64,000 nucleotides of DNA from Roseinatronobacter monicus. GTDB taxonomy: Bacteria > Pseudomonadota > Alphaproteobacteria > Rhodobacterales > Rhodobacteraceae. The notes beneath the pieces are model-generated. The model searched no databases. It was not told where the DNA came from and saw only the letters and a list, made by a program, of their open reading frames with translations. Within the stretch, counting starts at the first letter, position 1. The number at the start of each line of letters is the position of its first letter. The position numbers and the translations under genes are program-made. The DNA is taken from positions 3,529,001 to 3,593,000 of the forward strand of contig NZ_VFPT01000001.1 of the NCBI RefSeq assembly GCF_006716865.1, in the 5' to 3' direction. Positions 44,125-59,717 of this stretch are shown here, piece after piece.

Positions 44125-45021
44125 TTAACTCTCAGGTGCTGCTGGCACAGACATGCCCATATCCACTGCTTCGCGGCGCAATTCCTCACAAAGCAGGTCG
44201 CAAAACCTGCGGCGCGGTGATGTCGGGTCGAACATCAGGCCCAGCAGTCGCAACGGCGGCGGGTCACCCAAAGGCATGACGCGGAATTGCGGGTTTTGCA
44301 GCTTTGGATGCTCGGGCACGACCGAAACCCCCAAACCCGCCGCCACCAAGGCCAGAACCCCGTCTTGCGTGTCCACTTCCATGACGGTCTGAACCTGAAT
44401 GCCGTTATGTTCCAGCGCGCGCTCCACCATCTCGCCGACCCGCGCCTGACGCGAAAAGCGGACATAAGGATTATGCTGCAACAATTCCCGAAAATCCGCG
44501 CCCTTGGCCCCGGCATGGGCCAGAACGACCAGACGTTGGGCGCTGATCGTGTGGAATACGAAACCGGTGGCCACTTCGGTTGTGCCTGTGGTCAGCGCCA
44601 CATCAATCAGGCCCGCGCGCAATGTCGCGTCCAGTTCATGCGCAAGCCCCGTTGTCAGGCGCATTTCCAGATTGGGATGGCTTTCGCGCAAGCGCCGCAA
44701 TGCTGCGGGCAATAGGGTCGACACTGCCGTATGCACAGCGCCGATACGCAGCTTGCCGGCGTTGCTGTCGCGGCGCAGGCTGTGGGACAGGTCTTCCCAT
44801 ATGGCAATGACTTCGCGGGCGCGCTCGATGAAATCGCGGCCCTCATGCGTCAGCACGGGCGGGCGGCGGCTGCGGTCGAACAGGCGCATATCCACATCTG
44901 CCTCAAGCCCGCGCATCTGCACACTTATCGCCGAGGCTGACAGGTCCAACGCCTCTGCGGCTTGCGCAAAGCTGCCGTGATCGACCACCGCGATAAACGT
45001 ATACAGGGACTTCACATCCAT
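44125..45021 (-). CDS. LysR-family transcriptional regulator (first of two)
   Basis: 298 residues. The N-terminal winged helix 'SLYTFIAVVDHGSFAQAAEA' and 'LDLSASAISVQMRGLEADVD' are typical LysR DNA-binding elements. The effector domain spans about 90-290. It is the last gene of the leftward block, 12 bp after the first TauE/SafE gene. It probably controls the divergent promoter region at 50754-50987. The inducer is likely the island's substrate or an intermediate. Confidence 0.92.
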   Translation of the reverse strand: MDVKSLYTFIAVVDHGSFAQAAEALDLSASAISVQMRGLEADVDMRLFDRSRRPPVLTHEGRDFIERAREVIAIWEDLSHSLRRDSNAGKLRIGAVHTAVSTLLPAALRRLRESHPNLEMRLTTGLAHELDATLRAGLIDVALTTGTTEVATGFVFHTISAQRLVVLAHAGAKGADFRELLQHNPYVRFSRQARVGEMVERALEHNGIQVQTVMEVDTQDGVLALVAAGLGVSVVPEHPKLQNPQFRVMPLGDPPPLRLLGLMFDPTSPRRRFCDLLCEELRREAVDMGMSVPAAPES

Positions 45022-45033
45022 CTGATCGGCCCT

Positions 45034-45798
45034 TTACCCGCCACTGAACCCGCGCCACAGCAGGTTTACCCCAAGACAGCCCAGCACCACCAGCACCAAT
45101 ACCCGGAACCGGTGCGCCGGCACATAGGCCACCATGCGATTGCCCAGCCACATGCCCCCGATTGCCGCAGGTAGTGCGACGGCGGCCAAAAACAGCCGCT
45201 CAGGTGTAAAAAGGCCAACCAGCAGAAACGCCCCCGACACCAAAACCGCCGACAAAATGAAAAACAGGCTGAGCGCTGACAGAAATTCGCGCCGCTCGAC
45301 CCGTAACCCGACCAGATACATCACGAATAAAGGGCCGCCCACAGTTGTCAGCGCCCCCACGATCCCGCCCAGAATGCCCGCGATCCAGCCCGCAGGGCGT
45401 TCCTGCGACGCTCTGATCCCAAGATTGACCGCGCTGAGTGACAGCACCGAGAAGGTCACCACAACCGCTCCGAGTGCCAGCAACAAGACATCATCCGAAA
45501 AGGCTGACACCATCGCTGTGCCCAGCGGCACCCCGATCACGATCCCCCACAGCACTGGCGCAAAGCGCGTGGCCGTCTCGCGCATCTGCCCCATTTGCAG
45601 GAATTGCGCGATATTGGTCAGGAACAAGACCACCACATTCACTGCCAGCGCCGCGTCGACCGGCACAAAGAAGGGCAGGATCGCCATTGTCGTCAGTGGC
45701 AGGCCAAACCCCAACGCGCCCTTGACCATCCCCCCAAGGACAAAGACTGCTGCAACAAGCGCTGCATCCGCAGGGGTAATCGTCGTCAGAAAATTCAT
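45034..45798 (-). CDS. TauE/SafE-family anion exporter (first copy)
   Basis: 254 residues from the ATG at 45798. Eight to nine hydrophobic segments. The repeated family motif appears as 'LGGMVKGALGFGLPLTTMAI' in the first half and 'GGIVGALTTVGGPLFVMYLV' in the second. TauE/SafE proteins export sulfite, sulfoacetate or other small anions, though some carry organic acids. Placement between TctA (10 bp) and the LysR gene (12 bp) puts it in the transporter operon. Confidence 0.9.
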   Translation of the reverse strand: MNFLTTITPADAALVAAVFVLGGMVKGALGFGLPLTTMAILPFFVPVDAALAVNVVVLFLTNIAQFLQMGQMRETATRFAPVLWGIVIGVPLGTAMVSAFSDDVLLLALGAVVVTFSVLSLSAVNLGIRASQERPAGWIAGILGGIVGALTTVGGPLFVMYLVGLRVERREFLSALSLFFILSAVLVSGAFLLVGLFTPERLFLAAVALPAAIGGMWLGNRMVAYVPAHRFRVLVLVVLGCLGVNLLWRGFSGG

Positions 45799-45808
45799 AC
45801 GTGCGCGT

Positions 45809-47347
45809 TCAGGTTTTGGGGCCTTGCGGGGCCGATTTCTCTCCGTAAGCCCCAAGCTCGCGCTTCAGGCGCGCCGCTTTGACAGTGGACCGGATGATCA
45901 GAACAACCGAGATGACGGTCATGCACAAGAACAAAATCGTGATTGGCCCGCGCGCGAATATGCTCAGATCGCCGCGTGACATCAGAAGCGCCTGCCGAAA
46001 GTTGTTCTCCAGCATTGGCCCCAGAATGAACCCGATCAGGAAGGGTGCCGCCGGAAAGCGCAGGATCAGCATGATATAGCCCACCACCCCCATCACAAGC
46101 ATGACCGCCACGTCAAAGATCGAGTTGTTGACCGCATAAACCCCGTAGATGCACAGCACCAGCACACCCGGAAACAACAGGTTCGAGGGGACATCCGCAA
46201 TATAGCGAAACGCCCGGATCGCAACAGAGCCGATGATAAGCAGCAGAAACGAGCTGGCGATCAACCCGATGAACAGCGCATAGACAAGATCGGCATTGTT
46301 CACGAACAAAAGCGGCCCCGGCGTCAGGTTATGCACCATGAACGCGCCGATGATGATGGCCGTTATCACGTCACCCGGAATGCCCAGCGACAACAGCGGA
46401 ATCAGCGTGGCACCCGCCACCCCGTTATTGCCCGCCTCTGCTGCGGCGACGCCTTCGACCTCGCCCTTGCCGAAATTGTCACGGTTGGGCGATGCGCGGC
46501 GCGCCTCGGAATAGGACAGGAACGCAGAGGGCGCAGCCCCGATGCCGGGAATGGCGCCCAGAAACACACCAATGGCGCTGCCGCGAAAGATAGATTTCAA
46601 CGAGCGCCGGAAATCCACCATTTTCAGTTTTGAGTAACCCATGCCGCGCACGCGGTGATCGGCAGATGCGGATTTGCGCATATAGGCGATGATTTCAGGC
46701 AGGGCGAACAGCCCGATCAGCACGGCGATGAAATTCAGCCCCCCGCGCATATCGACCGACCCGAAGGTCAGCCGCTCGGACCCTGCGATCAGATCAAGGC
46801 CGACCGTCGCCAGAAGCAGACCGAGCGAGGCCGCGACAATCCCCTTGACCAGACTGTCGCCAGACACACCGGCGATGATCGTCAGTGAGAATACAATCAG
46901 CGTGAACATCTCGGGCGGGCCGAAATTCAGTGCGAAAGAAGCCAGCCAAGCGGCAAAGACAATCAGCGCAAGGTTCGAGATCAAATCAGCAATGCAGGAC
47001 GCATAAAGCGACATGCTCAACGCTTCGCCCGCGCGGCCCTGTTCGGCCATTGGGTAGCCATCCAGCGCGGTCGCCGACGACGCGGGCGTGCCTGGCGTCT
47101 TGATCAGGATGGCCGGAATGGACCCGCCGAAGATGCCGCCCTTATAGACCCCCAGCAACAGCAAAATGCCAAAGATCGGTTGCAGCGCAAAGGTGAAGGG
47201 CAAGGTCAGGGCCACGGCCATTGTCGCCGACATGCCGGGGATGGCCCCTGCCACGACCCCGATGGTCACACCTATCGCCAGAAAGAAGATGCTTTCCCAT
47301 TGCGCGACCATGATAAAGCCCGCGCTGAGTGCTTCGAGAAATGTCAC
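45809..47347 (-). CDS. Tripartite tricarboxylate transporter large permease TctA
   Basis: 512 residues with about 12 hydrophobic segments. Family motifs are 'VGAIPGMSATMAVALTLPFT' near residue 35 and 'VFLGAIPGIGAAPSAFLSYS' near residue 260, the pseudo-repeats of the TctA fold. It forms the membrane channel of the importer with TctB; TctC delivers substrate. The start overlaps the TctB stop by 4 bp. Confidence 0.94.
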   Translation of the reverse strand: MTFLEALSAGFIMVAQWESIFFLAIGVTIGVVAGAIPGMSATMAVALTLPFTFALQPIFGILLLLGVYKGGIFGGSIPAILIKTPGTPASSATALDGYPMAEQGRAGEALSMSLYASCIADLISNLALIVFAAWLASFALNFGPPEMFTLIVFSLTIIAGVSGDSLVKGIVAASLGLLLATVGLDLIAGSERLTFGSVDMRGGLNFIAVLIGLFALPEIIAYMRKSASADHRVRGMGYSKLKMVDFRRSLKSIFRGSAIGVFLGAIPGIGAAPSAFLSYSEARRASPNRDNFGKGEVEGVAAAEAGNNGVAGATLIPLLSLGIPGDVITAIIIGAFMVHNLTPGPLLFVNNADLVYALFIGLIASSFLLLIIGSVAIRAFRYIADVPSNLLFPGVLVLCIYGVYAVNNSIFDVAVMLVMGVVGYIMLILRFPAAPFLIGFILGPMLENNFRQALLMSRGDLSIFARGPITILFLCMTVISVVLIIRSTVKAARLKRELGAYGEKSAPQGPKT

Positions 47348-47835
47348 GGCAGCCTCACAATCTGGCCCTGAGGTATGGCAACCCCGGCGACCTTGGTGAA
47401 AAACAGATACAAAAGCAGCGGCAGCAAGATTGCGATAATCATGCCCCAGCCCAGATTTTTGCCCCGGCTCAGCAACACCATCAGCGCATAGGCAATCATG
47501 CAGACCCAGACCATGCCGACAACCGGCAGCGCGAAAAAGATGCCAATCAAAATGGCGCCAAGCGCCAGCAAACGCAGCCCCTCGGGGCGCGATACGGACA
47601 GATCATCGGCCACAGCATCAGGTGGGGCGGGGGCCAAGGCCGCGCGCAGCACCAAAATCAGACCGCAGCCCAAAATCGTCCAGGCAATGATCCTTGGCCA
47701 GAACGCAGGCGACAGCGCCAAAATCGGCACGCGCCGTGGCGTGGTGATATAGGTCGGAATGATCCACCAAAGCACCAATGCGCCAAGTGCCATGACACAG
47801 AGTCCGGTCAGGAATTCATCGCGTCGCGAGAGCAT
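47344..47835 (-). CDS. Tripartite tricarboxylate transporter small permease TctB
   Basis: 163 residues with four hydrophobic segments ('FLTGLCVMALGALVLWWIIP', 'RIIAWTILGCGLILVLRAAL', 'LALGAILIGIFFALPVVGMV', and a final 'GMIIAILLPLLLYLFFTKVA'). This is the expected size and topology for TctB. It overlaps TctA and follows TctC after a 127-bp gap that contains a hairpin. Confidence 0.9.
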   Translation of the reverse strand: MLSRRDEFLTGLCVMALGALVLWWIIPTYITTPRRVPILALSPAFWPRIIAWTILGCGLILVLRAALAPAPPDAVADDLSVSRPEGLRLLALGAILIGIFFALPVVGMVWVCMIAYALMVLLSRGKNLGWGMIIAILLPLLLYLFFTKVAGVAIPQGQIVRLP

Positions 47836-47901
47836 GTGATCTCCGTTTCAACGCTGGCGGAGCCGTGGCGTCCCGCCAGACGTGCAGCATGGACTGCGAA
47901 T

Positions 47902-47934
47902 GCCCCTCACAAGCGGCAGGCGTTTGTGAGGGGC
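47902..47934 (-). other. Intercistronic hairpin between tctC and tctB
   Basis: GCCCCTCACAA at 47902-47912 pairs with TTGTGAGGGGC at 47924-47934. There is no T tract on the minus strand after it. Such hairpins behind binding-protein genes often stabilise the upstream message or limit read-through, giving more TctC than permease. Confidence 0.65.
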
Positions 47935-47962
47935 GTTGGTCAGGGCCAGCAGGCCGCAAGCA

Positions 47963-48943
47963 TCAGTCGATTTCCAGATCAAGCTCGACAACCAGTCGAC
48001 GGAAGCTTTCATAGGCGCTGTTGACGAATTCCACCGTTTCATCCGGCGACATCACTTGCACGATGGACCCGCCAGACGTCATGAAGCGCTGGAAATCCTC
48101 GTCTTGGGTGGCTTCGGCCAGCCATTCACCCCATTTCTCGGTCGCCTCATCGGTCAGGCTTGCAGGCCCGGCAAGGCCAGTCCAGCCAACAAGTGCGGCC
48201 AGTTCCGGCTTGCCGATCTCCTCGACTGTGGGGGCGTCAAACCCATCCAGACGCTCGGCCGATGTCACCATGAGCGGGCGCATTTGCCCACTGTTGATGA
48301 ACGGTGCCGCGGGCGAGGTGCTGCCGCAATAAAAGTCGGAGGTGCCCTGCAAAACGGCGGTCAGCGCCTGACCATCGCCTTCGGTCGGAATGTGAATGAC
48401 ATTCTCATCCAGATCGGACACATCGAACGCATCCAGCACCATCAGCGCGCCGAAATGGGGCAGTGACCCAACCCCGGACGAACTGAAAAGGATTTCGCCG
48501 GGGCGGTCATTGACCGCGTCGATCAGGTCATCAATGCTGTGAAAATCCGAATTGCTGTTGACGACACAAGCAACGGGGTTGATCTCATAGATACCCACGA
48601 AGCGGAATTCATCCAGCGTATAAGGCAGGTTCGGGTTCATGGCCGGGTTCACCGTGTGCGACCCGACGCGCGCAAGAAGCAACGTGTAGCCATCGCCCTC
48701 GGCATCGCGCACAGCAACCGAACCGGTTGCCCCGCCTGCGCCCGCGCGATTAGTCAGCACAATGGATTGCGGCACAATCTGCGACAGCGGTGTGGACAGG
48801 GCGCGTGCCGACAGGTCAGTCGCGCCGCCGGGGCCGAATGGAATAATCATCTGGATCGTGCGTGTGGGGTATTCAGCGGCAACAGGTGCGGCCAAGGCAG
48901 CGGCCGATACGCCCATGCCGAGTGCGATCAAAGTGGTCTTCAT
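47963..48943 (-). CDS. Tripartite tricarboxylate transporter substrate-binding protein TctC
   Basis: 326 residues from the ATG at 48943 with GGGAGGAG upstream. The signal peptide ends near 'AAPVAAEYP'. The mature start 'YPTRTIQMIIPFGPGGATDL' is the TctC/Bug family signature. 'NRAGAGGATGSVAVRDAEGD' follows. These periplasmic proteins bind carboxylates, usually di- or tricarboxylates or aromatic acids. The ligand here is not known. Confidence 0.94.
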   Translation of the reverse strand: MKTTLIALGMGVSAAALAAPVAAEYPTRTIQMIIPFGPGGATDLSARALSTPLSQIVPQSIVLTNRAGAGGATGSVAVRDAEGDGYTLLLARVGSHTVNPAMNPNLPYTLDEFRFVGIYEINPVACVVNSNSDFHSIDDLIDAVNDRPGEILFSSSGVGSLPHFGALMVLDAFDVSDLDENVIHIPTEGDGQALTAVLQGTSDFYCGSTSPAAPFINSGQMRPLMVTSAERLDGFDAPTVEEIGKPELAALVGWTGLAGPASLTDEATEKWGEWLAEATQDEDFQRFMTSGGSIVQVMSPDETVEFVNSAYESFRRLVVELDLEID

Positions 48944-49064
48944 GTTAACTCCTCCCAAGTTAAGAATGACTTCGGCTTGCGCCGGAAGTCACGGTTGCTG
49001 CCCGGTGTCAGGGCTGGCTGGTAACAGGCGAAGCGACCTCCTTTCGTTGCAGAGTTGTGCAGGG

Positions 49065-50753
49065 TTAGTGCGCGGACCCTGCGGGCGGGGTGTTGCCCTG
49101 CACGACCGGGGCCGGTGCCGGGCAGATCCGCACATTCACACAGGCGGGTTTTCTGGATTTCTGTGCATGGTCCAGCGCTTCGGCCAAGGCCGCTGTGCTG
49201 TTCGTGTTCACAAAAACCCCGAAGCCGCCAAGGGCCTGCGCGGCCAGATCATAGCGCGCCATTGGCGAGAGCGCGCAGCCATAGGTGCGGTCCGGGCCAA
49301 ATTCGCGGATCTGGATCTGGTGCTCGGCATTCCAGACATGGTCATTGCCGATCACCGCCACAAAGCGCGCCTCCTCGCGCGCTGCGGTTTCGTATTCAGC
49401 CAGCAGAAACCCGGCTGTGCCATCGCCCATTGCGGCGATGACAGGCACATCGGGGCAAGCAATGCTGGCTGCAATCGCATAGGCGGGTGCGGCACCGATT
49501 GCGCCTGACACGCCGTTTATCACGCGCGGGCCGTCATGATGAATGGCCTGCATCCATTGTCCGAACTCGCCCCCGTCGACCACCAGCACCGCGCCCGGCG
49601 ATTTTGCCAGTTGCGCCGCGACAGCCGCGCCCACCTGCGCGGCGTGCAGCGTATCGGGACCAGAGGCCGTCGCCGATGGCACCTCAGCCCGCAGGGCCAA
49701 TGCCTGCGCCGAATGTGCAAGCCAATCGGCGCGGTCAGGCACGTCGGCGGCCTGCGCGATCAGTTTTCGCAAGGCAGGCAGCGCGTCGCCCTGACAGGCA
49801 ATATCAAGCTGTCCGCCAATGCGTGCGCGTGCGCGCTCAATCTCGGGGGCTTCGGGGTCAACCACTGCGAAGCGCGCGTCTGGCGTGCCCATGTCCTTGC
49901 CCAGAAACCCTGTTGTGAAATCAGCCGATTTGCCCAGCAGCAAGATACGATCCGCTGTGCGCGTCAGGTCAATCAACGCACCCAGCGAGGGGTCGCGCAA
50001 GCCGCGGGGGCTTTCCATGCAAATAACAGGTACATTCAGCGTCGATTGAAGCTGCGCCAGCGCGTCACCTGTCCGCGTGCGCGCAAGTGCAGGGCCGGTC
50101 AGCACAACCGGGTGCGCCGCGCCATTCAGGAATGTCACAAGCCTTTCAGCATCCGCATTGGTCAATGCCTGCTCGCCATAGGTCAGGGCAAGGGCACTGT
50201 GCGCAGGCGCGGTCAATGGGGCGGTCAGCACATCGGCGGGCAAGGCCAGATGCACAGGTCCGGGCCTGCCAGACAGCGCCGTGGCAATGGCTGTCGCAAG
50301 CTCCGAGGGCAACCGGTCGGCAGTGCTGGCGCGCCGTGCAAGCTTGGTGACGGGCTGCGCCATTGCAACCTGATCCATTTCCTGAAACGCGCCCATACCA
50401 TCTTGATTACGCGGGGAATCCCCGCTGAGCAGCAGCACCGGTGTTTCAGAGGCGCGTGCAGAAATCAGCGCGCCCAAAGCGTTGCCAAATCCCGCCCCCG
50501 CCGTCACAAGCGCGACGCCGATTTCGCCCGTCAATTGCGCATAGGCTTCGGCCATATAAACGGCGGCGGCTTCGTGCCGGACATGAACCAGCCGGATGCC
50601 GCTGTCCAGAAGCGCATCATAAACAGGCATGATCTGATTGCCGGATAAGGAAAAAATGCAACGCACGCCTGCGCCTTGCAGGGCATGCACTAGGGCATGC
50701 GCCCCCTGATTTGTCTGATGATCTCGCAAGAATGGTCCTCCTGCGGCCATCAT
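49065..50753 (-). CDS. Thiamine-diphosphate-dependent enzyme (acetolactate synthase-like)
   Basis: 562 residues with the three domains of the family. The PYR domain contains the catalytic-base Glu61 in 'VRHEAAAVYMAEAYAQLTG' and 'ALVTAGAGFGNALGALISAR'. The central domain spans about 190-330. The C-terminal TPP-binding motif begins 'AAMGDGTAGFLLAEYETAAR' and ends near 'VIGNDHVWNAE'. Possible reactions are decarboxylation of a 2-oxo acid or carboligation. It is the first gene of the leftward block and diverges from the FrdB-like gene. The usual acetolactate synthase regulatory subunit is absent, so amino-acid synthesis is unlikely. Confidence 0.82.
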   Translation of the reverse strand: MMAAGGPFLRDHQTNQGAHALVHALQGAGVRCIFSLSGNQIMPVYDALLDSGIRLVHVRHEAAAVYMAEAYAQLTGEIGVALVTAGAGFGNALGALISARASETPVLLLSGDSPRNQDGMGAFQEMDQVAMAQPVTKLARRASTADRLPSELATAIATALSGRPGPVHLALPADVLTAPLTAPAHSALALTYGEQALTNADAERLVTFLNGAAHPVVLTGPALARTRTGDALAQLQSTLNVPVICMESPRGLRDPSLGALIDLTRTADRILLLGKSADFTTGFLGKDMGTPDARFAVVDPEAPEIERARARIGGQLDIACQGDALPALRKLIAQAADVPDRADWLAHSAQALALRAEVPSATASGPDTLHAAQVGAAVAAQLAKSPGAVLVVDGGEFGQWMQAIHHDGPRVINGVSGAIGAAPAYAIAASIACPDVPVIAAMGDGTAGFLLAEYETAAREEARFVAVIGNDHVWNAEHQIQIREFGPDRTYGCALSPMARYDLAAQALGGFGVFVNTNSTAALAEALDHAQKSRKPACVNVRICPAPAPVVQGNTPPAGSAH

Positions 50754-50987
50754 TCAGTTAGCGTGAAAAAAATTCAAGTTATTTTTTCGACATTGATAAA
50801 ATTAACCGAATGTGCTTGGGTAAGCTGAACAAGGATGCGTGGGATTTGTAGGGGAAAAGCAGTGCTTTAGGCAATATTGCGGCTTTTGTTAATTTTTACT
50901 TACACAAAGCCTAAATATTTTTTCCTTTTAGTTAGCAGATGAATACATCTAAAATCTCACAAACTGCCCGCAGGATGGAAAGTAAAC
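50754..50987. promoter_or_regulatory. Divergent promoter region of the catabolic island
   Basis: 234 bp, clearly AT-richer than the flanking genes, between the TPP enzyme (leftward) and the FrdB-like gene (rightward). It holds runs such as GAAAAAAATTC near 50764 and TAAATATTTTTTCC near 50912. TTTAGGC at 50866-50872 is inverted as GCCTAAA at 50909-50915, and a perfect 10-bp palindrome lies at 50871-50880. This is the natural place for both operon promoters and for LysR binding. Confidence 0.7.
50871..50880. promoter_or_regulatory. Candidate LysR operator
   Basis: GCAATATTGC is a perfect palindrome with an AT core, near the middle of the divergent promoter region. It fits the T-N11-A type of interrupted palindrome bound by LysR proteins (TTAGGCAATATTGCGG context). 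Either of the two LysR proteins of the island could bind it. Confidence 0.4.
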
Positions 50988-51719
50988 GTGTCAGACCGAG
51001 AGAGCATAACCGTAACCGTGCAGCGCGGCGGGCCAGAAACGCCCCAGTATCCGCAGGAATTCGAGGTGCCCGCCTTCGAGAGTCAGACCGTGCTGGACGT
51101 GGTTTCGTGGATTCAGCAGAATGTCGACCCGACCCTGACCTATCGGTTCGCCTGTCGTGTCGGCATGTGTGGGTCTTGCGCCATGATGGTGAATGGCGTG
51201 CCCCGCTGGACCTGCCGCACCCATGTCAACAAAGTGCTGAAAGGCGGCAAGATCGAGGTTGGCCCCTTGCGCAATCTGCCTGTCATCAAGGATCTGGCCG
51301 CCGATATGGACCCGTTCTTTGACAAATGGGTTGCCGCCGAGGGGCGCCACCACCCCACCCTAAGCCGCGATGATGCGATTGCGGAAATCGACCCTGAACA
51401 GGCACAGCGCAAAGAGGCCAGTCTGGGGATCGAGTGCATAAACTGCTCGATTTGCTATTCGGCCTGCGACACGGTGGCGGGGGATTCTGATTACCTTGGT
51501 CCGGCTGCACTACAGCGCGCATGGACACTGTATAATGACGGCCAAGACGCGGACAAAGACGCGATCCTTGACGCCGTGTCTGGCAAGGGCGGGTGCCATT
51601 CGTGCCACTCTATGGGGTCTTGCACCGCCTATTGCCCCAACGGACTGGACCCGTTGTCCGCCATTGCCGGATTGAAACGCGCGACGACACAGCGCTTTTT
51701 CAGGGGGAGAGCCAAATGA
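50988..51719 (+). CDS. Fumarate reductase/succinate dehydrogenase-like iron-sulfur subunit
   Basis: 243 residues with a GTG start (GGATGGAAAG upstream). Cluster ligands are visible: [2Fe-2S] by C56, C61, C64 ('ACRVGMCGSC') and C76; [4Fe-4S] by C150, C153, C156 ('CINCSICYSAC') with C160; [3Fe-4S] by C206, C212 and C216 ('CHSMGSCTAYCP'). The 'CINCxxCYxAC' form resembles quinol:fumarate reductases more than the usual alphaproteobacterial SdhB. It passes electrons from the flavoprotein to quinone. First gene of the rightward block. Confidence 0.9.
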   Translation: MSDRESITVTVQRGGPETPQYPQEFEVPAFESQTVLDVVSWIQQNVDPTLTYRFACRVGMCGSCAMMVNGVPRWTCRTHVNKVLKGGKIEVGPLRNLPVIKDLAADMDPFFDKWVAAEGRHHPTLSRDDAIAEIDPEQAQRKEASLGIECINCSICYSACDTVAGDSDYLGPAALQRAWTLYNDGQDADKDAILDAVSGKGGCHSCHSMGSCTAYCPNGLDPLSAIAGLKRATTQRFFRGRAK

Positions 51720-52057
51720 CACCCTTTCATCTGTATATGGCGCAACGGCTGAGCGCGCTGGTCATGGCCCCGTTCGTGTTGGTGCATCTGGGCGTCATGA
51801 TCTACGCCATTCAGGGCGGTCTGACGGCAGCGGAAATTCTGGGCCGGACGCAAGGCTCGGTGTTCTGGTTCCTGTTCTACGGCATGTTCGTGGTGGCTGT
51901 GGCGCTTCACGCGGCCCTTGGGTTGCGGGTGGTCTTGTCCGAATGGGCAGGGCTGCGGGGGCGCACACTGACCGTCACAGCTTGGATCATCGGCCTTGGG
52001 CTTTTGGGGCTTGGCGCGAATGCGGTCTGGGCTGTCACGGCAGGGGGGATGTCATGA
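51716..52057 (+). CDS. Succinate dehydrogenase-like membrane anchor subunit
   Basis: 113 residues with three membrane segments ('ALVMAPFVLVHLGVMIYAI', 'SVFWFLFYGMFVVAVALHAA', 'LTVTAWIIGLGLLGLGANAV'). 'AQRLSALVMAPFVLVH' and 'ALHAALGLRVVLSEW' provide His residues that could bind heme b. Start ATG at 51716 overlaps the upstream stop (ATGA). With the next gene it should form the quinone-reactive membrane part. Confidence 0.85.
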   Translation: MTPFHLYMAQRLSALVMAPFVLVHLGVMIYAIQGGLTAAEILGRTQGSVFWFLFYGMFVVAVALHAALGLRVVLSEWAGLRGRTLTVTAWIIGLGLLGLGANAVWAVTAGGMS

Positions 52058-52395
52058 AAGCAGTGGCGCGCGCCCATCCGCTTTGGCTGGCCTATATCCT
52101 GCACCGCCTATCTGGCATCGGGCTGGCGCTGTTTTTGCCGTTTCATTTCTGGGTGTTGTCGCTGGCGCTGAACAACGCTGCACAGCTTGACGCCTTTCTA
52201 ACGCTGTCCGACCTGTTCCTTGTCAAACTGGCGGAAACGGGGCTGGTTTTCCTGCTGGCCGTTCACATGTTCGGCGGCCTGCGACTGATGGCGCTGGAGT
52301 GGCTGCCGTGGTCGCCCTCGCAAAAGAGATGGGCCGCCGCCGCCACCGCTGGCGCGTTCTTCATTTCCATTATTTTCCTGATGCAGGCAATCTGA
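52054..52395 (+). CDS. Succinate dehydrogenase-like cytochrome b subunit
   Basis: 113 residues with three membrane segments. 'AYILHRLSGIGLALFLPFHF' carries the HRxSG signature of SdhC-type subunits (quinone and heme site), and 'LVFLLAVHMFGGLRLMALEW' another His. Start ATG at 52054 overlaps the previous stop. The following flavoprotein gene begins one base after the stop. Confidence 0.88.
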   Translation: MKAVARAHPLWLAYILHRLSGIGLALFLPFHFWVLSLALNNAAQLDAFLTLSDLFLVKLAETGLVFLLAVHMFGGLRLMALEWLPWSPSQKRWAAAATAGAFFISIIFLMQAI

Positions 52396-52396
52396 C

Positions 52397-54160
52397 ATGT
52401 TCACCGTAAAAGATATCGACCGGCACGACACCGACATTCTTATCCTTGGCACAGGCGGGGCGGGGTTGTTCGCGGCATTGCACGCCCTGCAAACCGCACC
52501 TGAAGGCACGAAAGTGACCATCGCCGTCAAGGGGCTGATCGGCAAATGCGGCTGCACGCGCATGGTGCAGGGCGGCTATAATGTGGCGGTGGGCGGCGGC
52601 GACAGTGTCGAGCGGCATTTCATGGATACTGTGCAGGGCGGCAAATGGCTGCCCAATCAGGATATGGCGTGGCGGTTATGCGAACAGGCCGTGGTCCGCA
52701 TCCGCGAGTTGGAGAATGAGATTGGCTGCTTCTTCGACCGCAACGCCGATGGCACGCTGCACCAGAAAGCGTTTGCAGGCCAGACAGCGGATCGCACTGT
52801 GCATAAGGGCGATCTGACCGGCATCGAGATCATCAACCGGCTGATGGAACAGGTCTTGGCCCGTCCGGTCGAGAAATTGCAGGAACACCGCGCCATCGGC
52901 CTGATCCCCACCAAGGACGGCAGCGCCTTGGCGGGTGTGCTGATGATCGACATGCGCACAGGCCGCTTTCGGTTTGTCCGCGCGAAAACCGTGCTGATGG
53001 CCACGGGCGGCGGTCCCACCATGTACAAATACCACACCCCCAGCGGCGACAAGACGATGGACGGGCTGGCGATGGCACTGCGTGCGGGCCTGCCCCTGCG
53101 CGATATGGAAATGGTGCAGTTTCACCCAACGGGCCTGCTGGCGGGCGACCATACCCGCATGACCGGCACTGTGCTGGAAGAGGGGTTGCGCGGGGCGGGC
53201 GGGCAGTTGGTCAACCATTCGGGCCAACGCTTCATGTTCGACTATGACGCCAAGGGCGAACGCGCCACGCGCGATGTGGTCAGCCGCGGCATCTATTCGG
53301 AAATGCGCAAGAACAACAATCCCGAACAGGAAGGGGTGTTCATTTCCATGGCCCATCTTGGCCCCGACTTCGTGGCCAAAAAGTTCAAGGGCATGGTCGA
53401 GCGTTGCGCCGATTGCGGCTTTGATCTGGCGGGCGGCAAGGTCGAGGTGGTGCCAACCGCGCATTACTTCATGGGCGGCGTGGTGGTCGATGTGGACACA
53501 CGCACCGCGATGGAGGGGCTTTATGTTGCTGGCGAAGATGCCGGGGGCGCGCATGGCTCTAACCGGCTGGGCGGCAATGGTGTGGCGAATTCCACTGTTT
53601 ATGGCGGCATTGCGGGCGATGTCATGGGGATGGATATTCGCCAGATGGGCACGCTGCGCGCCCCCGATGAGGGCGTGTTAGAGGCAGAGCTGGCCCGCGC
53701 CTGCCACCCGCTGACCCGCGCGCCGGAACTGGTGCTGCCATTGCGGCAGCAGTTGCAAGAAGTGATGTGGGACGAGGTCGGCGTCATGCGCCATGAGGCG
53801 GGGTTGCAGCGTGGGCTAAGCGGCATCGCGCAAGTGTCTGACGCGCTGATGGATGTGGGGGTCGCGCCGGACAATCTAGCGTTCAACCTGACATGGCATG
53901 ACTGGCTGAACCTTCGCTCGCTCTGCGACATCTCTGAAGTGATCGCCAAAGCCGCCCTTGCGCGCGACAATTCGCGCGGTGCGCATTACCGAGAAGATTA
54001 CCCAGACCCCGGCGCGATGGAAGACAGCTATTTCACGGTCGCCCAAGCCAAAACCGGCCCTGTCGAAGTGACCCGAGAGCCGGTGCAATTCACCATCGTG
54101 CGACCGGGCGAGACGGTCTTGCCGGACGGTTCCCCCGAAACGCTGGTTGCCGCACAATGA
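52397..54160 (+). CDS. Fumarate reductase/succinate dehydrogenase-like flavoprotein, no canonical FAD-linking His
   Basis: 587 residues. FAD-binding 'ILILGTGGAGLFAALHALQT' near the N-terminus and 'MATGGGPTMYKYHTPSGD' are present. The dicarboxylate site is kept: 'VQFHPTGLLAGDHTRMTG', 'LEEGLRGAGGQLVN' (Arg), 'PTAHYFMGGV' (His) and 'GSNRLGGNG' (Arg). The covalent-flavin motif R-S-H-T is replaced by 'GKCGCTRMVQGG', with Cys53 where the His should be, so FAD is probably not bound through His. This separates it from housekeeping SdhA. Together with three upstream subunits in B-C-D-A order it forms a complete membrane complex likely oxidising a C4 dicarboxylate. Confidence 0.88.
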   Translation: MFTVKDIDRHDTDILILGTGGAGLFAALHALQTAPEGTKVTIAVKGLIGKCGCTRMVQGGYNVAVGGGDSVERHFMDTVQGGKWLPNQDMAWRLCEQAVVRIRELENEIGCFFDRNADGTLHQKAFAGQTADRTVHKGDLTGIEIINRLMEQVLARPVEKLQEHRAIGLIPTKDGSALAGVLMIDMRTGRFRFVRAKTVLMATGGGPTMYKYHTPSGDKTMDGLAMALRAGLPLRDMEMVQFHPTGLLAGDHTRMTGTVLEEGLRGAGGQLVNHSGQRFMFDYDAKGERATRDVVSRGIYSEMRKNNNPEQEGVFISMAHLGPDFVAKKFKGMVERCADCGFDLAGGKVEVVPTAHYFMGGVVVDVDTRTAMEGLYVAGEDAGGAHGSNRLGGNGVANSTVYGGIAGDVMGMDIRQMGTLRAPDEGVLEAELARACHPLTRAPELVLPLRQQLQEVMWDEVGVMRHEAGLQRGLSGIAQVSDALMDVGVAPDNLAFNLTWHDWLNLRSLCDISEVIAKAALARDNSRGAHYREDYPDPGAMEDSYFTVAQAKTGPVEVTREPVQFTIVRPGETVLPDGSPETLVAAQ

Positions 54161-55128
54161 CGGAGGCGCAGATGATCCCCCTCGACCTGATCCAGACCAC
54201 CGCCGAGCGACTTATGGACAAGGCGGCCATCGAGATTCCGCAAGACTATCTCGATGGGCTGCAAGAAGCGGCAAAAACCGAAGATGGCGACCTGTCATCC
54301 TTTGTGCTCAAAGCGATGCTCGACAATTACGAGGCCGCGAAAGAGGACCGCCGCGCAATGTGTGGCGATACGGGCGTGCCGCGCTGGTTCGTGAAAATGG
54401 GCAATGACGCGCAGGTTCAGGGCGGCATGGTGGCACTTGAGGGTGCTTTGCGCCGCGCCACTGCCAGCGCCACCAACGGCGTGCCGCTGCGCCCCAACCG
54501 CGTGCACCCGCTATGGCGCACCGACCACAACAACAATGTCGGCATCGGCGCGCCTGAAATCGAATACGGGTTTGAACCCCATGGCGACTGGATCGACCTG
54601 ATTACGGTTCACAAGGGCGGGTTGTTCGGCACCGATTACCGGATGTTGTTTCCATCCGACGGGGTGCAGGGGATCAAGCGCTTCTACCTCGACAGTCTGA
54701 TGGCATTCGGCAAGCGCGGGCTGGCCTGCCAGCCTGCGATCATCGGTATCGGCTTGGGCGGGTCAAAAGACACCTGCATGACCCTTGGCAAACGGGCATC
54801 CGTGCTGCGCACTGTGGGCAGCCGCAATTCCGACCCGCGCATCGCTGAAATGGAAGACGAGTTCAAGGAATTGGGCAATTCCATCGGCATGGGCGCGATG
54901 GGGTTTGTCGGCAAGAACATGGTGATCGATTGCAATATCGAAGTGGGGTACTGCCACACGGGCGGTATGCCCATGTCTGTGCACGCGTTTTGCCTGTCGT
55001 CGCGGCGCGCCGTGGCGCGGCTATGGCCCGATGGGCGGGTCGAATACCGCACCGACCCCGAGTGGTTCACCCCCTATCAGCGCCGCGAAACTGTCGATTG
55101 GGAACCCGCACAGGAGGCCGCAGAATGA
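54157..55128 (+). CDS. Class I fumarase / L(+)-tartrate dehydratase-like alpha subunit
   Basis: 323 residues. Oxygen-sensitive [4Fe-4S] hydro-lyase alpha chain. 'AMCGDTGVPRWFVKMG' holds the first cluster Cys (C69); C191/C207 and C266 ('VGYCHTGGMPMSV') are candidates for the others. 'NSIGMGAMGFVGKNMVIDCN' and 'FCLSSRRAVARLWPDG' match the family. It adds or removes water from a C4-dicarboxylate-like substrate. The start overlaps the flavoprotein stop and the end overlaps the beta subunit (ATGA), so the four upstream subunits and this enzyme share one message. Confidence 0.88.
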   Translation: MTEAQMIPLDLIQTTAERLMDKAAIEIPQDYLDGLQEAAKTEDGDLSSFVLKAMLDNYEAAKEDRRAMCGDTGVPRWFVKMGNDAQVQGGMVALEGALRRATASATNGVPLRPNRVHPLWRTDHNNNVGIGAPEIEYGFEPHGDWIDLITVHKGGLFGTDYRMLFPSDGVQGIKRFYLDSLMAFGKRGLACQPAIIGIGLGGSKDTCMTLGKRASVLRTVGSRNSDPRIAEMEDEFKELGNSIGMGAMGFVGKNMVIDCNIEVGYCHTGGMPMSVHAFCLSSRRAVARLWPDGRVEYRTDPEWFTPYQRRETVDWEPAQEAAE

Positions 55129-55790
55129 GCGTGCGCGAGATACGCCTGTCCACCACCCCGACGGCTGAGGCGATTGCCGACCTTAAACTGGGCGATATCG
55201 TCTATCTGGACGGGCTGATGTATACAGCGCGCGAAGGCGTCTATATGCGTGCATTGGAACAGCAGGCCAATATCCCGATGGAACTGCCGTCCGAGAGTGC
55301 GGCGAATTTCCACTGCTCGCCCGCCGCGCGAATCAATGCAGACGGGTCATTCGATATGGGCGCAGTCACGGCTACCGCGTCGTTCCGCTTTGCCAAATGG
55401 CTGCCGGAATGGATGGCCAAGACAGGGGCTAAGCTGATTATCGGCAAAGGTGGCATGACCTCGAAGGACTATAAGGAATATTTCGTGCCCAATGGCGCGG
55501 TGTATCTGTCCACCGTGGGCTATGGCACTGGCGCACTTCTGGGGCGTGGCGTGGAAAAGGTCGAGGCCGTTCACTGGAACGAGGAACTTGGCCTTGCACA
55601 AGCCATGTGGGTCATCCGTTGCAACAAGATGGGGCCGTTTATTGTGGCGTCCGACATGAATGGCGATTGCCTGTTCGAGCGTGAAAATGCCAAGATCAGT
55701 GAAAATATCGCGCGCGTTTATGAGGGCACGAAACCTGCGATCCTCAAGCGCTATGGCGAAAGCGATGACCGATCGGATGAGGTGATCTGA
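55125..55790 (+). CDS. Class I fumarase / L(+)-tartrate dehydratase-like beta subunit
   Basis: 221 residues from the ATG at 55125. 'LKLGDIVYLDGLMYTAREGV' and 'GAKLIIGKGGMTSKDYKEYF' are the family motifs of the C-terminal (beta) half. The pair with the alpha chain makes a two-subunit class I hydro-lyase rather than the fused FumA type. Fumarase, tartrate dehydratase and mesaconase members are hard to tell apart by eye. The stop is followed after one base by the molybdoenzyme gene. Confidence 0.88.
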   Translation: MSVREIRLSTTPTAEAIADLKLGDIVYLDGLMYTAREGVYMRALEQQANIPMELPSESAANFHCSPAARINADGSFDMGAVTATASFRFAKWLPEWMAKTGAKLIIGKGGMTSKDYKEYFVPNGAVYLSTVGYGTGALLGRGVEKVEAVHWNEELGLAQAMWVIRCNKMGPFIVASDMNGDCLFERENAKISENIARVYEGTKPAILKRYGESDDRSDEVI

Positions 55791-55791
55791 C

Positions 55792-56889
55792 ATGACAGAC
55801 AGCCCCTTTACACCGGGTGCCACGCGCAATGGCGTGCGAGAATTCACCCGCGAGGAAGTGGGCCTTGCAAACCGCAATTCCGGTGCACTTCTGGAAACGC
55901 TGGACTGCGATATTACGCCCGCAGGCACGCATTACCTGCTGACCCATTTTGATGTGCCAATGCTGTCTGCACCCGATCATGTGCTGGAATTTGCGGGCGC
56001 GTTTGACGCGCCTTTCACCCTGAGCATGGACGAGATTATGGCCCAGCCGCAGGTCACGCAGCCGGTGACGCTGGAATGTGCGGGCAATGGCCGCGCAGGC
56101 ATGGACCCGCGCCCCTTGTCGATGCCCTGGATGTACGAGGCTGTTGGTACATCGGAATGGACAGGCACGCCGCTTGCCCCCTTGATCGCCCGCGCAAAAC
56201 CGCACGACAGCGTGCAGGATTTTGCCTTTATCGGTGCGGATTTCGGCTATGACAAAGGGGTTGCCCATGCCTTTGGCCGCAGCCTGACCCCGCAGGACGT
56301 GGCGGAACTGGATGTCATGCTGGTCTGGGGCATGAATGGCGCGCCGCTGTTGCCGCAGCATGGCGCACCGCTGCGCCTGATCGTGCCGGGGTGGTATGGC
56401 ATGGCCTCGGTCAAGTGGCTGACGAAGATCGAGGCGTTGGAGCATCGCTATCAAGGCTTTCAACAGGTCGAAACCTATCGCTTTCGCGCCTGTGAGGGCG
56501 ATCCGGGCCAGCCTGTCACCCGCATTCATGTCAGATCGCTGATGAAGCCGCCCGGTGTGCCGGATTGGTTCACGCGCGACCGCTGGGTGCCAGCGGGGCG
56601 TGTCACGTTGTCGGGGCGGGCATGGTCCGGGGGCGGCGTGCCGATTGAGCGGGTCGAGGTGTTGCTGAGCGGCGACTGGCACGATGCCGCGCTGACGGGC
56701 CGCGCGGGCCGCTACGCGTGGACGGGTTGGCAGATTGATTGGACGGCCACACCGGGCCTGCATGAACTGGCCTGCCGCGCCACCGATGCCGAAGGCAATC
56801 GCCAGCCCTTGAGTGCGGCGCAAAACCTTGGCGGGTTTGCCAATAACTCCGTGCACCGTGTGCGGGTGCATGTGGCCGAAAGTGCCTGA
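55792..56889 (+). CDS. Sulfite-oxidase-like molybdopterin enzyme, no export signal
   Basis: 365 residues. The Mo-cofactor domain (about 60-245) carries the molybdenum-ligand Cys96 in 'TLECAGNGRAGMDPRP', then 'VGTSEWTGTPLAPLIARAKP' and 'LRLIVPGWYGMASVKWLTKI'. The C-terminal dimerisation domain (about 255-360) includes 'LSGRAWSGGGVPIERVEVLL'. Sulfite oxidase family members oxidise sulfite or related compounds. Unlike SorA/SorT-type sulfite dehydrogenases it has no Tat or Sec signal, so it should stay in the cytoplasm. As the last gene of the operon it suggests that sulfite or a similar oxyanion is formed by the pathway. Confidence 0.85.
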   Translation: MTDSPFTPGATRNGVREFTREEVGLANRNSGALLETLDCDITPAGTHYLLTHFDVPMLSAPDHVLEFAGAFDAPFTLSMDEIMAQPQVTQPVTLECAGNGRAGMDPRPLSMPWMYEAVGTSEWTGTPLAPLIARAKPHDSVQDFAFIGADFGYDKGVAHAFGRSLTPQDVAELDVMLVWGMNGAPLLPQHGAPLRLIVPGWYGMASVKWLTKIEALEHRYQGFQQVETYRFRACEGDPGQPVTRIHVRSLMKPPGVPDWFTRDRWVPAGRVTLSGRAWSGGGVPIERVEVLLSGDWHDAALTGRAGRYAWTGWQIDWTATPGLHELACRATDAEGNRQPLSAAQNLGGFANNSVHRVRVHVAESA

Positions 56890-56904
56890 AGCGCGGTCAC
56901 AGCC

Positions 56905-57648
56905 CTACCACAGCACATTCGCCAAAGTGCCCAGACCCAGCACCAGCGACAGCCCGATCAGCAGCCGCCGGAAAGCGGTGTCGCTGGTGCGCCGGAACAC
57001 CCATAACCCCGCCTGCACCGCCAGAAACGACGCGGGCAACGCGATCAGAAATGCGGTCATCGTGGTCGGGGTATAGACCCCGCGCCACCACAGCATGGCC
57101 GTGGTCGCACCCAGAATGCTGACATTGAACGGTTGCAGCACCGCGCGGGTTTCTGCCTTCGGCCAAGGGCGCATGGAACACCAGATCACCAACAGCGCAC
57201 CCGACAGCCCCGCCATGCCGCCAAGGAAGCCACCCGAGAAGCCCATCATGCTGTCCAGCACCGGAGTGCGGCGCTCGAATTTTGGAAGGTTTTTTCGCAG
57301 GCTGAAAAAACCGCCATAGACGATCAGCAAGGTGGCGATCAGCAGCTTGAGCATATCGGCATTGATAACCGTCAGCAGCGTAACCCCGACCGGCACGCCC
57401 ACCAGCCCCGGCAGGATGAACCGCATCAGCCGCGCCACATTCTGGCGCAAGGCGTGGCGCACTTCCCAAAGCCCTTGCATACCAGTAACCACAGACATCA
57501 GCGTGACCACACCCACCGCGCTGACAGGGTCCAGCGCGACCATCAAAAACCCCAGCGCGAACAGGGCGGTTCCGGTGCCCGCCAGCCCGTTGATGAACCC
57601 GCCCGCCAGTGCCCCGGCAACAATAAAGGCAATGTCGTGCCAACTCAT
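56905..57648 (-). CDS. TauE/SafE-family anion exporter (second copy)
   Basis: 247 residues with eight hydrophobic segments. Family motifs are 'GALAGGFINGLAGTGTALFA' and 'FSGGFLGGMAGLSGALLVIW', clearly different from the first copy, so this is not a recent duplication. It is transcribed toward the rightward operon and its start overlaps the second LysR gene stop by 4 bp. Exported anion unknown; sulfite is a candidate. Confidence 0.9.
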   Translation of the reverse strand: MSWHDIAFIVAGALAGGFINGLAGTGTALFALGFLMVALDPVSAVGVVTLMSVVTGMQGLWEVRHALRQNVARLMRFILPGLVGVPVGVTLLTVINADMLKLLIATLLIVYGGFFSLRKNLPKFERRTPVLDSMMGFSGGFLGGMAGLSGALLVIWCSMRPWPKAETRAVLQPFNVSILGATTAMLWWRGVYTPTTMTAFLIALPASFLAVQAGLWVFRRTSDTAFRRLLIGLSLVLGLGTLANVLW

Positions 57649-58547
57649 GGCGCGGTCAGGTCAGACAGCGGGCGGGCGGTTTCAACGGCGCTGACGAATG
57701 CCTTGTGAATCTCTTCGATCACGCGAATTTTCGGGTTTTCCTTGTGAAAGGCCAGCCCAACGATGCGCAGGGGTGCATCCGCGCCCAAGGGCAGCCAGCG
57801 CAGGGGCAGGGCACCGGGATTGGCCACACAGGGCGCAGGAACAATCGACACGCCTAGATTGGCATGAACCATGCTGGAAATCGCTTCGAGGTTCTCCAGC
57901 TCCATCGTTTCAGACACGCGGACAGCGTTGTTTTGAAGCCATGTCTCGATCAATGTGCCGACCACGGCGTCGCGGTTGAACCGGATGAACGGGTGCTTTT
58001 GCAAAATCTGGATCGGGTCTGTTTCGGGAATTTCGGCAGATGTGACCAGATGCAACCGCTCTTCGGCGATGTTGAGAAACCGCATTCCGATCGGCAGGAT
58101 GATCGGCTTGCTGACCAGCGCCACATCCAGTTGCCCGCGGTCGATCCCGCTGAGCAAGGCCCCTGTCAGCGCGGGATGAATGCGCAGGCGAAGGCCCGCG
58201 TGCTTGCTGCGCAAAATCGACATCGCCATAGGGGTCAGTCCGGTCAGGGTGGTGGGCACTGCACCAAGCGCCAACTCGCCCTGAAACCCGTCATCGCCCA
58301 GTACGGAAGGAACAAGATTGTCGTAGTCGTGCACAATCTTGCGCGCCTGCGCAACGACGCTGCGCCCGGTGGGCGACAATGTCGGTGTGCGGCGGCTGCG
58401 GTCGAACAGGACCAGCCCAAGGTCTTCTTCAAGGGCGCGCATCTGCTGGCTGACAGCGGCATGGGTGATGAAGACAGCATCCGCCGCTTCCCCGAATGTC
58501 TTGTGGTCGGCAACAGCAATCAGGGTTTTGAACAGACGGATCGACAT
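57645..58547 (-). CDS. LysR-family transcriptional regulator (second of two)
   Basis: 300 residues. 'IRLFKTLIAVADHKTFGEAA' and 'VFITHAAVSQQMRALEEDLG' form the N-terminal helix-turn-helix. The effector domain covers about 90-295. It is co-transcribed with the second TauE/SafE gene. An inverted repeat ACACATA-N8-TATGTGT about 35 bp upstream is a likely autoregulatory site. Confidence 0.92.
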   Translation of the reverse strand: MSIRLFKTLIAVADHKTFGEAADAVFITHAAVSQQMRALEEDLGLVLFDRSRRTPTLSPTGRSVVAQARKIVHDYDNLVPSVLGDDGFQGELALGAVPTTLTGLTPMAMSILRSKHAGLRLRIHPALTGALLSGIDRGQLDVALVSKPIILPIGMRFLNIAEERLHLVTSAEIPETDPIQILQKHPFIRFNRDAVVGTLIETWLQNNAVRVSETMELENLEAISSMVHANLGVSIVPAPCVANPGALPLRWLPLGADAPLRIVGLAFHKENPKIRVIEEIHKAFVSAVETARPLSDLTAP

Positions 58548-59336: not shown

Positions 59337-59631
59337 GTCTGTGTTCCTTGTGGTGTCTCGGTTCGGGTTGCCTGTGTGCCGTGATCTGGCGCAAACCATG
59401 TCCGCGCGGCGCGAATTTCGCAAGGCCCAGCGGCAAGATCAAGAACAGTGAATTTTGCAGCGCGCCGCTGATTGTGCCGCCGCGCGCACATAGCCTGTGC
59501 GGTATTGGGGTGTTTTCATCCCACCGGGCAAAGCGCAGATGTGTGGCAGATTAACGCATAGGAGATACCGTATTGGGGCTCGGCGCGAATCACGACCGTT
59601 GTGAATTGAAATCCGAGGTTGATTGATGTGT
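59337..59631. other. Upstream region of cobO and left flank of the IS110 element
   Basis: About 295 bp without a gene. The left part should carry the cobO promoter. The left boundary of the IS110 element lies somewhere in or just after this stretch but cannot be fixed from one copy. Confidence 0.4.
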
Positions 59632-59717
59632 CGTTGCCCTTGGCACGCTGGGCTGCGTGTCAACGGGGTCGTGCTGTGAAGCGCGCCCCAAGATATCCAA
59701 TACGAAAGGGCAACGAC
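59632..59717 (+). repeat. 12-bp inverted repeat just before the IS110 transposase start
   Basis: GTCGTTGCCCTT at 59632-59643 is perfectly inverted as AAGGGCAACGAC at 59706-59717, directly touching the transposase ATG. The arms enclose 62 bases and could form a stem that hides the ribosome binding site or serves as a subterminal repeat of an IS1111-type element. Confidence 0.7.

Follow-up and report, generated by a model that had tools for sequence, protein, structure and literature searches.

3-Sulfopropionate is succinate with a sulfonate in place of one carboxylate. According to the Discussion of PMC11489063, its degradation by bacteria has gone unreported save in a Konstanz thesis (Mayer), in which, as that paper relates, Roseovarius nubinhibens uses homotaurine via 3-sulfopropionate, sulfoacrylate and sulfolactate. 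The same paper describes the formation of 3-sulfopropionate by Enterococcus gilvus from sulfoquinovose, a plant sulfolipid sugar, and from 2,3-dihydroxypropane-1-sulfonate (DHPS), its formation from homotaurine by Burkholderia and Cupriavidus necator, and the ability of Bilophila wadsworthia to respire it. Tripartite tricarboxylate transporter (TTT) importers are listed, in PMC5812351, for sulfolactate (SlcHFG of R. nubinhibens) and for dithiodipropionate. Here we describe a divergent island of 15 genes at positions 44125-58547 of a 64,000-nucleotide stretch of Roseinatronobacter monicus DNA (contig NZ_VFPT01000001.1; the whole stretch is called the window), which holds a relative of complex II, FrdABCD, next to a class I fumarase-like hydratase, FumAB. 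This pair has probably been recruited for a sulfonate, with 3-sulfopropionate as the leading candidate.

With odds somewhat better than even, the island would serve to import a succinate-mimicking sulfonate, in all likelihood 3-sulfopropionate, and to degrade it via sulfoacrylate to sulfolactate. The TTT importer TctABC would take up the sulfonate; FrdABCD, judged by its family, would oxidise 3-sulfopropionate to 3-sulfoacrylate and deliver the electrons to quinone; and the iron-sulfur hydratase FumAB would hydrate sulfoacrylate to 3-sulfolactate, in the way that fumarase forms malate. Sulfolactate could then be desulfonated by enzymes encoded elsewhere, at a locus that is suyAB-like and includes a ComC-like dehydrogenase gene, while sulfite would be oxidised by the sulfite oxidase-like enzyme Sor, exported by the TauE proteins, or both. 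Substrate, direction and products of this scheme are what we infer. An earlier note on this DNA had proposed the stepwise oxidation of a succinate-like compound by a set of C4-dicarboxylate enzymes; its observation is confirmed and its interpretation partly supported, in that the succinate-like character stands and the C4 dicarboxylate gives way to a likelier sulfonate, the link to sulfur having been missed.

The same note knew of no described pathway with this exact gene set, and no published gene set was found. In the accessible parts of PMC11489063, PMC5320631, PMC11659671 and PMC12890257, no genes are assigned to aerobic 3-sulfopropionate breakdown. Searches of the homotaurine/sulfopropionate and homocysteate literature, with most subscription journals outside their reach, found no gene assignment, and searches of the same reach found no paper on fumarase-like or succinate dehydrogenase (SDH)-like sulfonate enzymes. 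Should the core of the island be the missing 3-sulfopropionate step, it could be put to the test in roseobacters that grow in culture, and genes that now carry a succinate dehydrogenase or fumarate hydratase annotation would have to be counted among those of the sulfur cycle.

The conserved core and its altered active site

A search with the island's FumA returned 490 relatives, of which the best 80 loci, mostly from Rhodobacterales and mutually related, were kept; with eight plasmid loci and 15 stretches from class genomes they make up 103 mapped loci with FumA, some of them truncated contigs. Neighbours were called by tblastn at E <= 1e-15 over at least 40% of the query. Of the 103 loci, 102 contain FumB, 100 FrdA, 98 FrdD, and 96 each FrdC and FrdB, and this co-occurrence of frdBCDA-fumAB is far above chance. 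The other neighbours were LysR (78), TauE (61), TctA (43), a nitroreductase-like gene (37), a thiamine pyrophosphate (TPP)-like gene (30), a Zn-alcohol dehydrogenase (Zn-ADH; 23), Sor (18) and glutathione S-transferase (16). The six genes form the conserved heart of the system, and the transporter, the TPP enzyme and the sulfite oxidase are variable modules, so that co-conservation, which the earlier note had proposed to check for all the genes of the island, holds for the core and fails for these three. Gene content, conservation and neighbourhoods are observed directly, as are the invariant substitutions described below.

The core was also found on plasmids of Sulfitobacter, Paracoccus, Pseudorhizobium, Methylobacterium, Cupriavidus and Pseudomonas. 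In the Pseudorhizobium plasmid NT26_p1 (L119), which is typed as conjugative, it adjoins type IV secretion genes, and in a Sulfitobacter plasmid (L116 3453-6640) genes for DUF126, aconitase X and an FAD-linked oxidase lie directly 5' of it. The nitroreductase in 37 of the 103 loci is NfsA-like and often divergent to frdB (e.g., L041 5892-6731). The nearest FumA among the best 80 of 490 loci (99%, L006) and the nearest TPP enzyme among the matches listed (98%, P0001) both belong to Roseinatronobacter.

Two genome samples were examined, one of 289 class genomes and one of 198 family genomes. At E <= 1e-100, FumA was found in 24 of the 198 family genomes; since the other 174 lack an island-type FumA, this protein is not the family's housekeeping fumarase. 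Elsewhere in the window genome lies a typical SdhA, with a best score of 782 bits at C1:2218073 against 415 bits for the island FrdA, and this, together with the scarcity of FumA in the family, argues that the core is not the housekeeping pair. The island's own dehydrogenase and hydratase, with their importer and regulators, had earlier been set apart from the tricarboxylic acid cycle, and this is borne out; the refuting case, in which the genome would have no other sdh and fumarase genes than these, does not hold for SDH. The island FumA is the sole class I (Fumerase) match in the genome, class II fumarase not having been searched for. Among the class genomes the identity of FumA is bimodal, with 16 genomes at 66-100% (one TGA in three of these 16 matches) and the remainder at or below 35%; the clade is therefore a distinct subfamily.

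FrdABCD has the parts of a complex II enzyme. FrdB scores well over the cut-off of the SDH/fumarate reductase (FRD) iron-sulfur subfamily (Table 1) and its 12 Cys, the ligands included, are invariant in 95/95 orthologs; both anchors carry an Sdh_cyt domain and conserved His, namely H25 and H66 of FrdC (kept in 90/90) and H32 and H72 of FrdD (98/98), each numbered in the 114-residue reading. FrdA has both flavoprotein domains of the family, and by comparison with E. coli FrdA and the genome's own SdhA its catalytic residues H243, E262, R292, H356 and R390 are kept in 99/99 orthologs. At two positions it departs from complex II in all 99: Cys (C53) stands in place of the His that binds FAD covalently, and Glu (E261) in place of the substrate Thr of the TEG motif, positions which we take to be H44, the covalent attachment site, and T244, the substrate-binding Thr, of E. 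coli FrdA. Moreover, an insertion relative to both reference proteins carries Arg254 in 98/99, and an extra positive charge by the site of the second carboxylate may suit a sulfonate. FrdA falls below the cut-offs of the 25 NCBIfam models listed (of 29), with TfrA fumarate reductase as its top match.

FumAB has both domains of the class I hydratases. Three Cys of FumA (C69, C191 and C279) are invariant in 103/103 loci and are the likely Cys ligands of a 4Fe-4S cluster. FumA exceeds the cut-off of TIGR00722 (214 bits vs 101) and FumB stays under that of TIGR00723 (113 vs 145). Both fall short of the fumarate hydratase and tartrate dehydratase equivalogs, with 202.9/276 and 149.3/365 bits for the alpha subunit and 123.3/264 and 115.2/269 for the beta subunit.

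Sulfur-linked neighbours and a possible route through sulfolactate

Neighbours related to sulfite were counted in the 95 loci that hold FrdB, FrdA, FumA and FumB, within the fetched flanks and with at least 40% identity as an added requirement; the counts are descriptive, because the loci share ancestry and some of them are short. A TauE/YeiH-type exporter was found by 58 cores, any sulfite dehydrogenase by 19, and either by 63; counted separately, there were 57 TauE-type, 17 Sor and 4 YeiH, and SoxC and each of two further reference sulfite dehydrogenases had a match in a single locus. TctA was found in 37 loci and a TPP-type gene in 23. Possible feeder genes stand by 30 cores, comprising Zn-ADH (22), a succinate-semialdehyde dehydrogenase (SSADH)-like gene (7), class III aminotransferase (6) and a sulfolactaldehyde-reductase-like gene (2), and a single locus (L037) has both a TPP-type gene and a feeder. 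By their families, the feeders would fit a conversion of homotaurine or 3-hydroxypropanesulfonate to 3-sulfopropanal and on to 3-sulfopropionate.

Some loci are richer. In Pseudorhizobium NT-26, a tripartite ATP-independent periplasmic (TRAP) transporter, a reductase whose best NCBIfam match is sulfolactaldehyde 3-reductase (324/348 bits) and then SSADH lie at most 10 kb downstream of the core; in Paracoccus versutus its neighbours are a dehydrogenase best matching L-sulfolactate dehydrogenase (204/500 bits), a hydroxyacid dehydrogenase and a TTT. Methylobacterium nodulans and Pseudomonas sp. MPC6 have a sulfite dehydrogenase-like gene with a cytochrome c near the core, and YeiH-type exporters occur near cores among the eight plasmid loci. 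One contig of a family genome (G487) holds, within about 30 kb, the core, TauE, LysR, TctCBA, Zn-ADH and SSADH, and then a TRAP transporter (DctP, DctM), an HpsN-like gene with 57% identity to that of the window genome, ComE over its cut-off and a flavin mononucleotide-dependent dehydrogenase. Because sulfite-linked genes and sulfonate-type feeders surround related cores in this way, a sulfonate such as 3-sulfopropionate is likelier as substrate than a C4 dicarboxylate. Two further genes were seen near cores: one annotated as 3-sulfinopropanoyl-CoA desulfinase, about 9 kb off the core of a Sulfitobacter plasmid and cut by the stretch edge (L118 20751-20963), and a gene of the mandelate racemase/muconate lactonizing family that in 6/103 loci separates the core (or sor) from tauE (L061 11732-13432, L118 11656-12795).

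The window genome carries a second, sulfonate-like locus (L126 470-9966; C1:808469-817965) with an HpsN-like gene, a short-chain dehydrogenase/reductase, a Zn-ADH, a GntR regulator, a ComC-like gene of the Ldh_2 family, SuyA-like and SuyB-like genes and YeiH. The SuyA and SuyB labels are presumed from context, and the HpsN, ComC and SlcD-type names are likewise our assumption. The ComC-like protein best matches L-sulfolactate dehydrogenase (190/500 bits), and the SuyA-like open reading frame (ORF) is small, at 98 aa. The genome also has a true Xsc and a TIGR01275 member (a proxy for CuyA) over their cut-offs, and no ComE at E <= 1e-15. Given the SuyAB-like locus, the true Xsc and the TIGR01275 member, sulfolactate could be used by this host.

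SuyB, ComE, Xsc and TIGR01275 were sought in 42 genomes with the core, of which the class sample supplied 16 and a set of 27 further loci the other 26 (L008 left out); SuyB-type was defined by an identity of 65% or more to the copy in the window genome or by E <= 1e-60. SuyB-type was found in 11 and ComE over its cut-off in 18, without overlap and thus together in 29, and Xsc over its cut-off in 30. Six of the remaining 13 genomes have TIGR01275 over its cut-off; of the seven without it (G060, G080, G194, G205, G287, G291 and G294), five have ComE-like matches under the cut-off. SuyB-type occurs in 8/16 core vs 17/273 non-core genomes of the class (p = 8e-6), and ComE, called in the family sample at E <= 1e-55 (46 genomes, 45 above cut-off), in 11/24 core vs 35/174 other genomes (p = 0.009); these are Fisher tests that ignore kinship and count in the window's own genome. 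Such co-occurrence favours sulfolactate, with room left for a direct release of sulfite.

Weighing the possible pathways

Several findings weigh against the route through sulfolactate or against parts of it. The only curated match of the SuyA-like and SuyB-like proteins is galactarate dehydratase, far under its cut-off, the HpsN-like gene of the window genome passes the cut-off of histidinol dehydrogenase, its curated match, and the substrates of SuyAB and Xsc may all be other sulfonates. The route is not universal, since seven of the 42 core genomes lack SuyB-type, ComE and TIGR01275 over cut-off and 12 lack Xsc over cut-off. At the threshold used, 32 of the 95 loci have no sulfite-linked gene and 65 no feeder, and the island itself has no feeder that would generate an aldehyde. 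TauE is no proof of sulfite, because the TauE of E. gilvus is called a probable exporter of 3-sulfopropionate in PMC11489063. The TPP enzyme is left without an assigned step in the proposed pathway. The covalent-FAD His of E. coli FrdA can be mutated without loss of fumarate reduction but at the cost of succinate oxidation, and by analogy C53 at this position argues against easy oxidation.

In a possible, though clearly less probable, variant with the same substrate, FumAB would hydroxylate the sulfonated carbon of sulfoacrylate, and the resulting bisulfite adduct would fall into malonate semialdehyde and sulfite; its odds overlap with those of the sulfolactate route. The seven genomes without a route over cut-off speak for it, two of which (G291 and G294) gave no match to SuyB-type, ComE or TIGR01275 at the thresholds used (1e-60, 1e-15 and 1e-20), as does the fact that sulfite-linked genes adjoin the core itself. 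A methylmalonate-semialdehyde dehydrogenase gene near the core in 2/103 loci, directly 3' of fumB in Pseudomonas sp. MPC6 (L122) and nearby in Cupriavidus sp. P-10 (L121), likewise favours malonate semialdehyde as the product. Against this stand the presence of SuyB-type or ComE in 29/42 core genomes, with both enriched there, the ComE-like matches in five of the seven genomes, and the thesis reported in PMC11489063, which names sulfolactate. If this variant is true, a complex II-fumarase pair would carry out direct desulfonation and break the C-S bond in another way than SuyAB, Xsc and CuyA do.

The remaining explanations change the substrate or the direction. Complex II, class I fumarase and TTT families, all present in the island, handle di- and tricarboxylates, and it might be supposed that a non-sulfonated dicarboxylate is degraded and that the sulfite-linked genes are bystanders, as the 32 loci without such a gene would allow; this is unlikely in view of the TauE-type, Sor and YeiH genes counted by the cores, to which Methylobacterium and Pseudomonas add one case each of another sulfite dehydrogenase. 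With sulfosuccinate as the substrate, the complex would oxidise it to sulfofumarate, and the hydratase would yield sulfomalate, or oxaloacetate and sulfite. Sulfosuccinate is nearer to the true succinate/fumarate pair and to the TTT importer, sulfite-linked genes are nearby, and oxaloacetate would need no further carbon enzyme; it is nevertheless quite unlikely, as the dehydrogenases and aminotransferases by 30/95 cores would be left unexplained and the literature searches turned up no paper on sulfosuccinate catabolic genes. Highly improbable is an anaerobic respiration in which FumAB would take water from sulfolactate and FrdABCD would use quinol to reduce the resulting sulfoacrylate, 3-sulfopropionate being exported: C53 at the flavin-attachment position, TfrA fumarate reductase as the best NCBIfam match of FrdA (under cut-off) and the exporter role given to the E. 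gilvus TauE (PMC11489063) would agree with it. What speaks against it is that the cluster includes importers and a sulfite oxidase, and that the feeders would supply 3-sulfopropionate by way of aldehydes. The oxidative route from 3-sulfopropionate to sulfolactate is the preferred reading.

Layout of the island and comparison with described systems

An ORF check and Pfam, which backs the family assignment of every gene, confirmed the 15 genes in the order and on the strands given before, in two divergent blocks (Table 1). The leftward block runs from the TPP enzyme through TctC, TctB, TctA and TauE1 to LysR1, and the rightward one from FrdB through FrdC, FrdD, FrdA, FumA and FumB to Sor, followed by TauE2 and LysR2 on the minus strand. 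The several 4-bp overlaps noticed earlier number six (TctA/TctB, FrdB/FrdC, FrdC/FrdD, FrdA/FumA, FumA/FumB and TauE2/LysR2), and with 1-bp gaps at FrdD/FrdA and FumB/Sor they suggest operons. The gap between the blocks indeed measures 234 bp and contains a 14-bp inverted repeat (50873-50886/50906-50919; 19-bp spacer, 86% complementary), for which no clear conservation was seen in three relatives whose genes are arranged alike.

Table 1. Features of the island, in coordinates of the window
Feature	Coordinates	Strand	Basis
LysR1, LysR-type regulator, end of leftward block	44125..45021	-	Pfam LysR_substrate 118 bits, HTH_1 68 bits
TauE1, TauE/SafE-family membrane exporter (predicted)	45034..45855	-	Pfam TauE 91 bits; TTG start uncertain, overlaps tctA by 47 bp
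TctA, large permease of TTT	45809..47347	-	Pfam TctA 483 bits
TctB, small permease of TTT	47344..47835	-	Pfam TctB 39 bits
TctC, periplasmic binding protein of TTT	47963..48958	-	Pfam TctC 120 bits
Thiamine diphosphate (ThDP, TPP) enzyme, benzaldehyde lyase / 2-hydroxyacyl-CoA lyase-like	49065..50753	-	Pfam TPP_enzyme N/M/C; best PDB match benzaldehyde lyase
Shared divergent promoter region (putative), 234 bp	50754..50987		Intergenic gap
FrdB-like iron-sulfur subunit	50988..51719	+	Fer2_3, Fer4_17; dhsB subfamily TIGR00384 180 bits vs cut-off 88
FrdC/SdhC-like membrane anchor	51716..52057	+	Sdh_cyt 36 bits (longer frame)
FrdD/SdhD-like membrane anchor	52054..52395	+	Sdh_cyt 40.5 bits (longer frame)
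FrdA-like flavoprotein, proposed 3-sulfopropionate dehydrogenase catalytic subunit	52397..54160	+	FAD_binding_2 233.5 bits, Succ_DH_flav_C 103 bits
FumA-like alpha subunit, two-subunit class I hydratase, proposed sulfoacrylate hydratase	54157..55128	+	Fumerase 225 bits
FumB-like beta subunit, hydratase partner of FumA	55125..55790	+	Fumerase_C 73 bits (longer frame)
Sor, sulfite oxidase-like molybdenum enzyme	55792..56889	+	Oxidored_molyb 161 bits, Mo-co_dimer 49 bits; best PDB match SorA
TauE2, TauE/SafE-family exporter (predicted)	56905..57648	-	Pfam TauE 110 bits
LysR2, LysR-type regulator, type often adjoining core	57645..58547	-	Pfam LysR_substrate 110 bits

Around the island, the window holds a homogentisate 1,2-dioxygenase gene of an unrelated aromatic pathway upstream (39812-41173, minus strand), a 423-aa ORF between a LolA-like gene and the island (42784-44055, plus strand) with no Pfam match at E <= 0.001, and, about 1 kb off the island, an IS110-family transposase gene (Transposase_20, DEDD_Tnp_IS110; 59619-60758, plus strand).

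The TPP enzyme was considered as Xsc and rejected, as it scores 158 bits against a TIGR03457 cut-off of 676.4, and the true Xsc elsewhere in the genome reaches 930 bits. As a stand-in for ComDE it is unsupported: with a TPP-like neighbour taken as at least 48% identity, or the window itself, ComE was present in 3/12 of the genomes that had one against 15/30 of the others (42 core genomes, p = 0.18). A search with the protein gave 5551 relatives among 7997 scored candidates, and the names shown among the 120 listed were generic (thiamine pyrophosphate-binding protein, acetolactate synthase). It might, as a guess, be a decarboxylase of a sulfonated 2-oxo acid.

Compared with SorA and SorT, the island Sor shares the domains of the fold, its molybdopterin domain being that of the sulfite oxidase superfamily, and the active-site Cys (C96, kept in 18/18). 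It differs in its low scores (153.7/600 bits for SorA NF052245 and 141/570 for SorT), in that no signal peptide was seen on inspection by eye, and in that no cytochrome gene lies beside sor within the window. The importer can be likened to SlcHFG of R. nubinhibens, a TTT for a C3 sulfonate (PMC5812351), by type only. FumAB resembles class I fumarase and TtdAB in its Fumerase and Fumerase_C domains and three invariant Cys, and stands apart through scores under the equivalog cut-offs and a separate clade in the 289 class genomes. Complex II (SDH/FRD, TfrA) and the island share the four-subunit architecture, the Fe-S Cys and the catalytic Arg and His, whereas in the island the FAD His is replaced by Cys and the substrate Thr by Glu, an insertion carries a near-invariant Arg, and the gene order is B-C-D-A. 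As for the pathway of R. nubinhibens ISM, the sentence in PMC11489063 that reports it names no genes, and ISM is not among the best 80 of the 490 loci; its host, however, belongs to the roseobacter group, and its chemistry needs exactly one dehydrogenase and one hydratase, as the island would offer.

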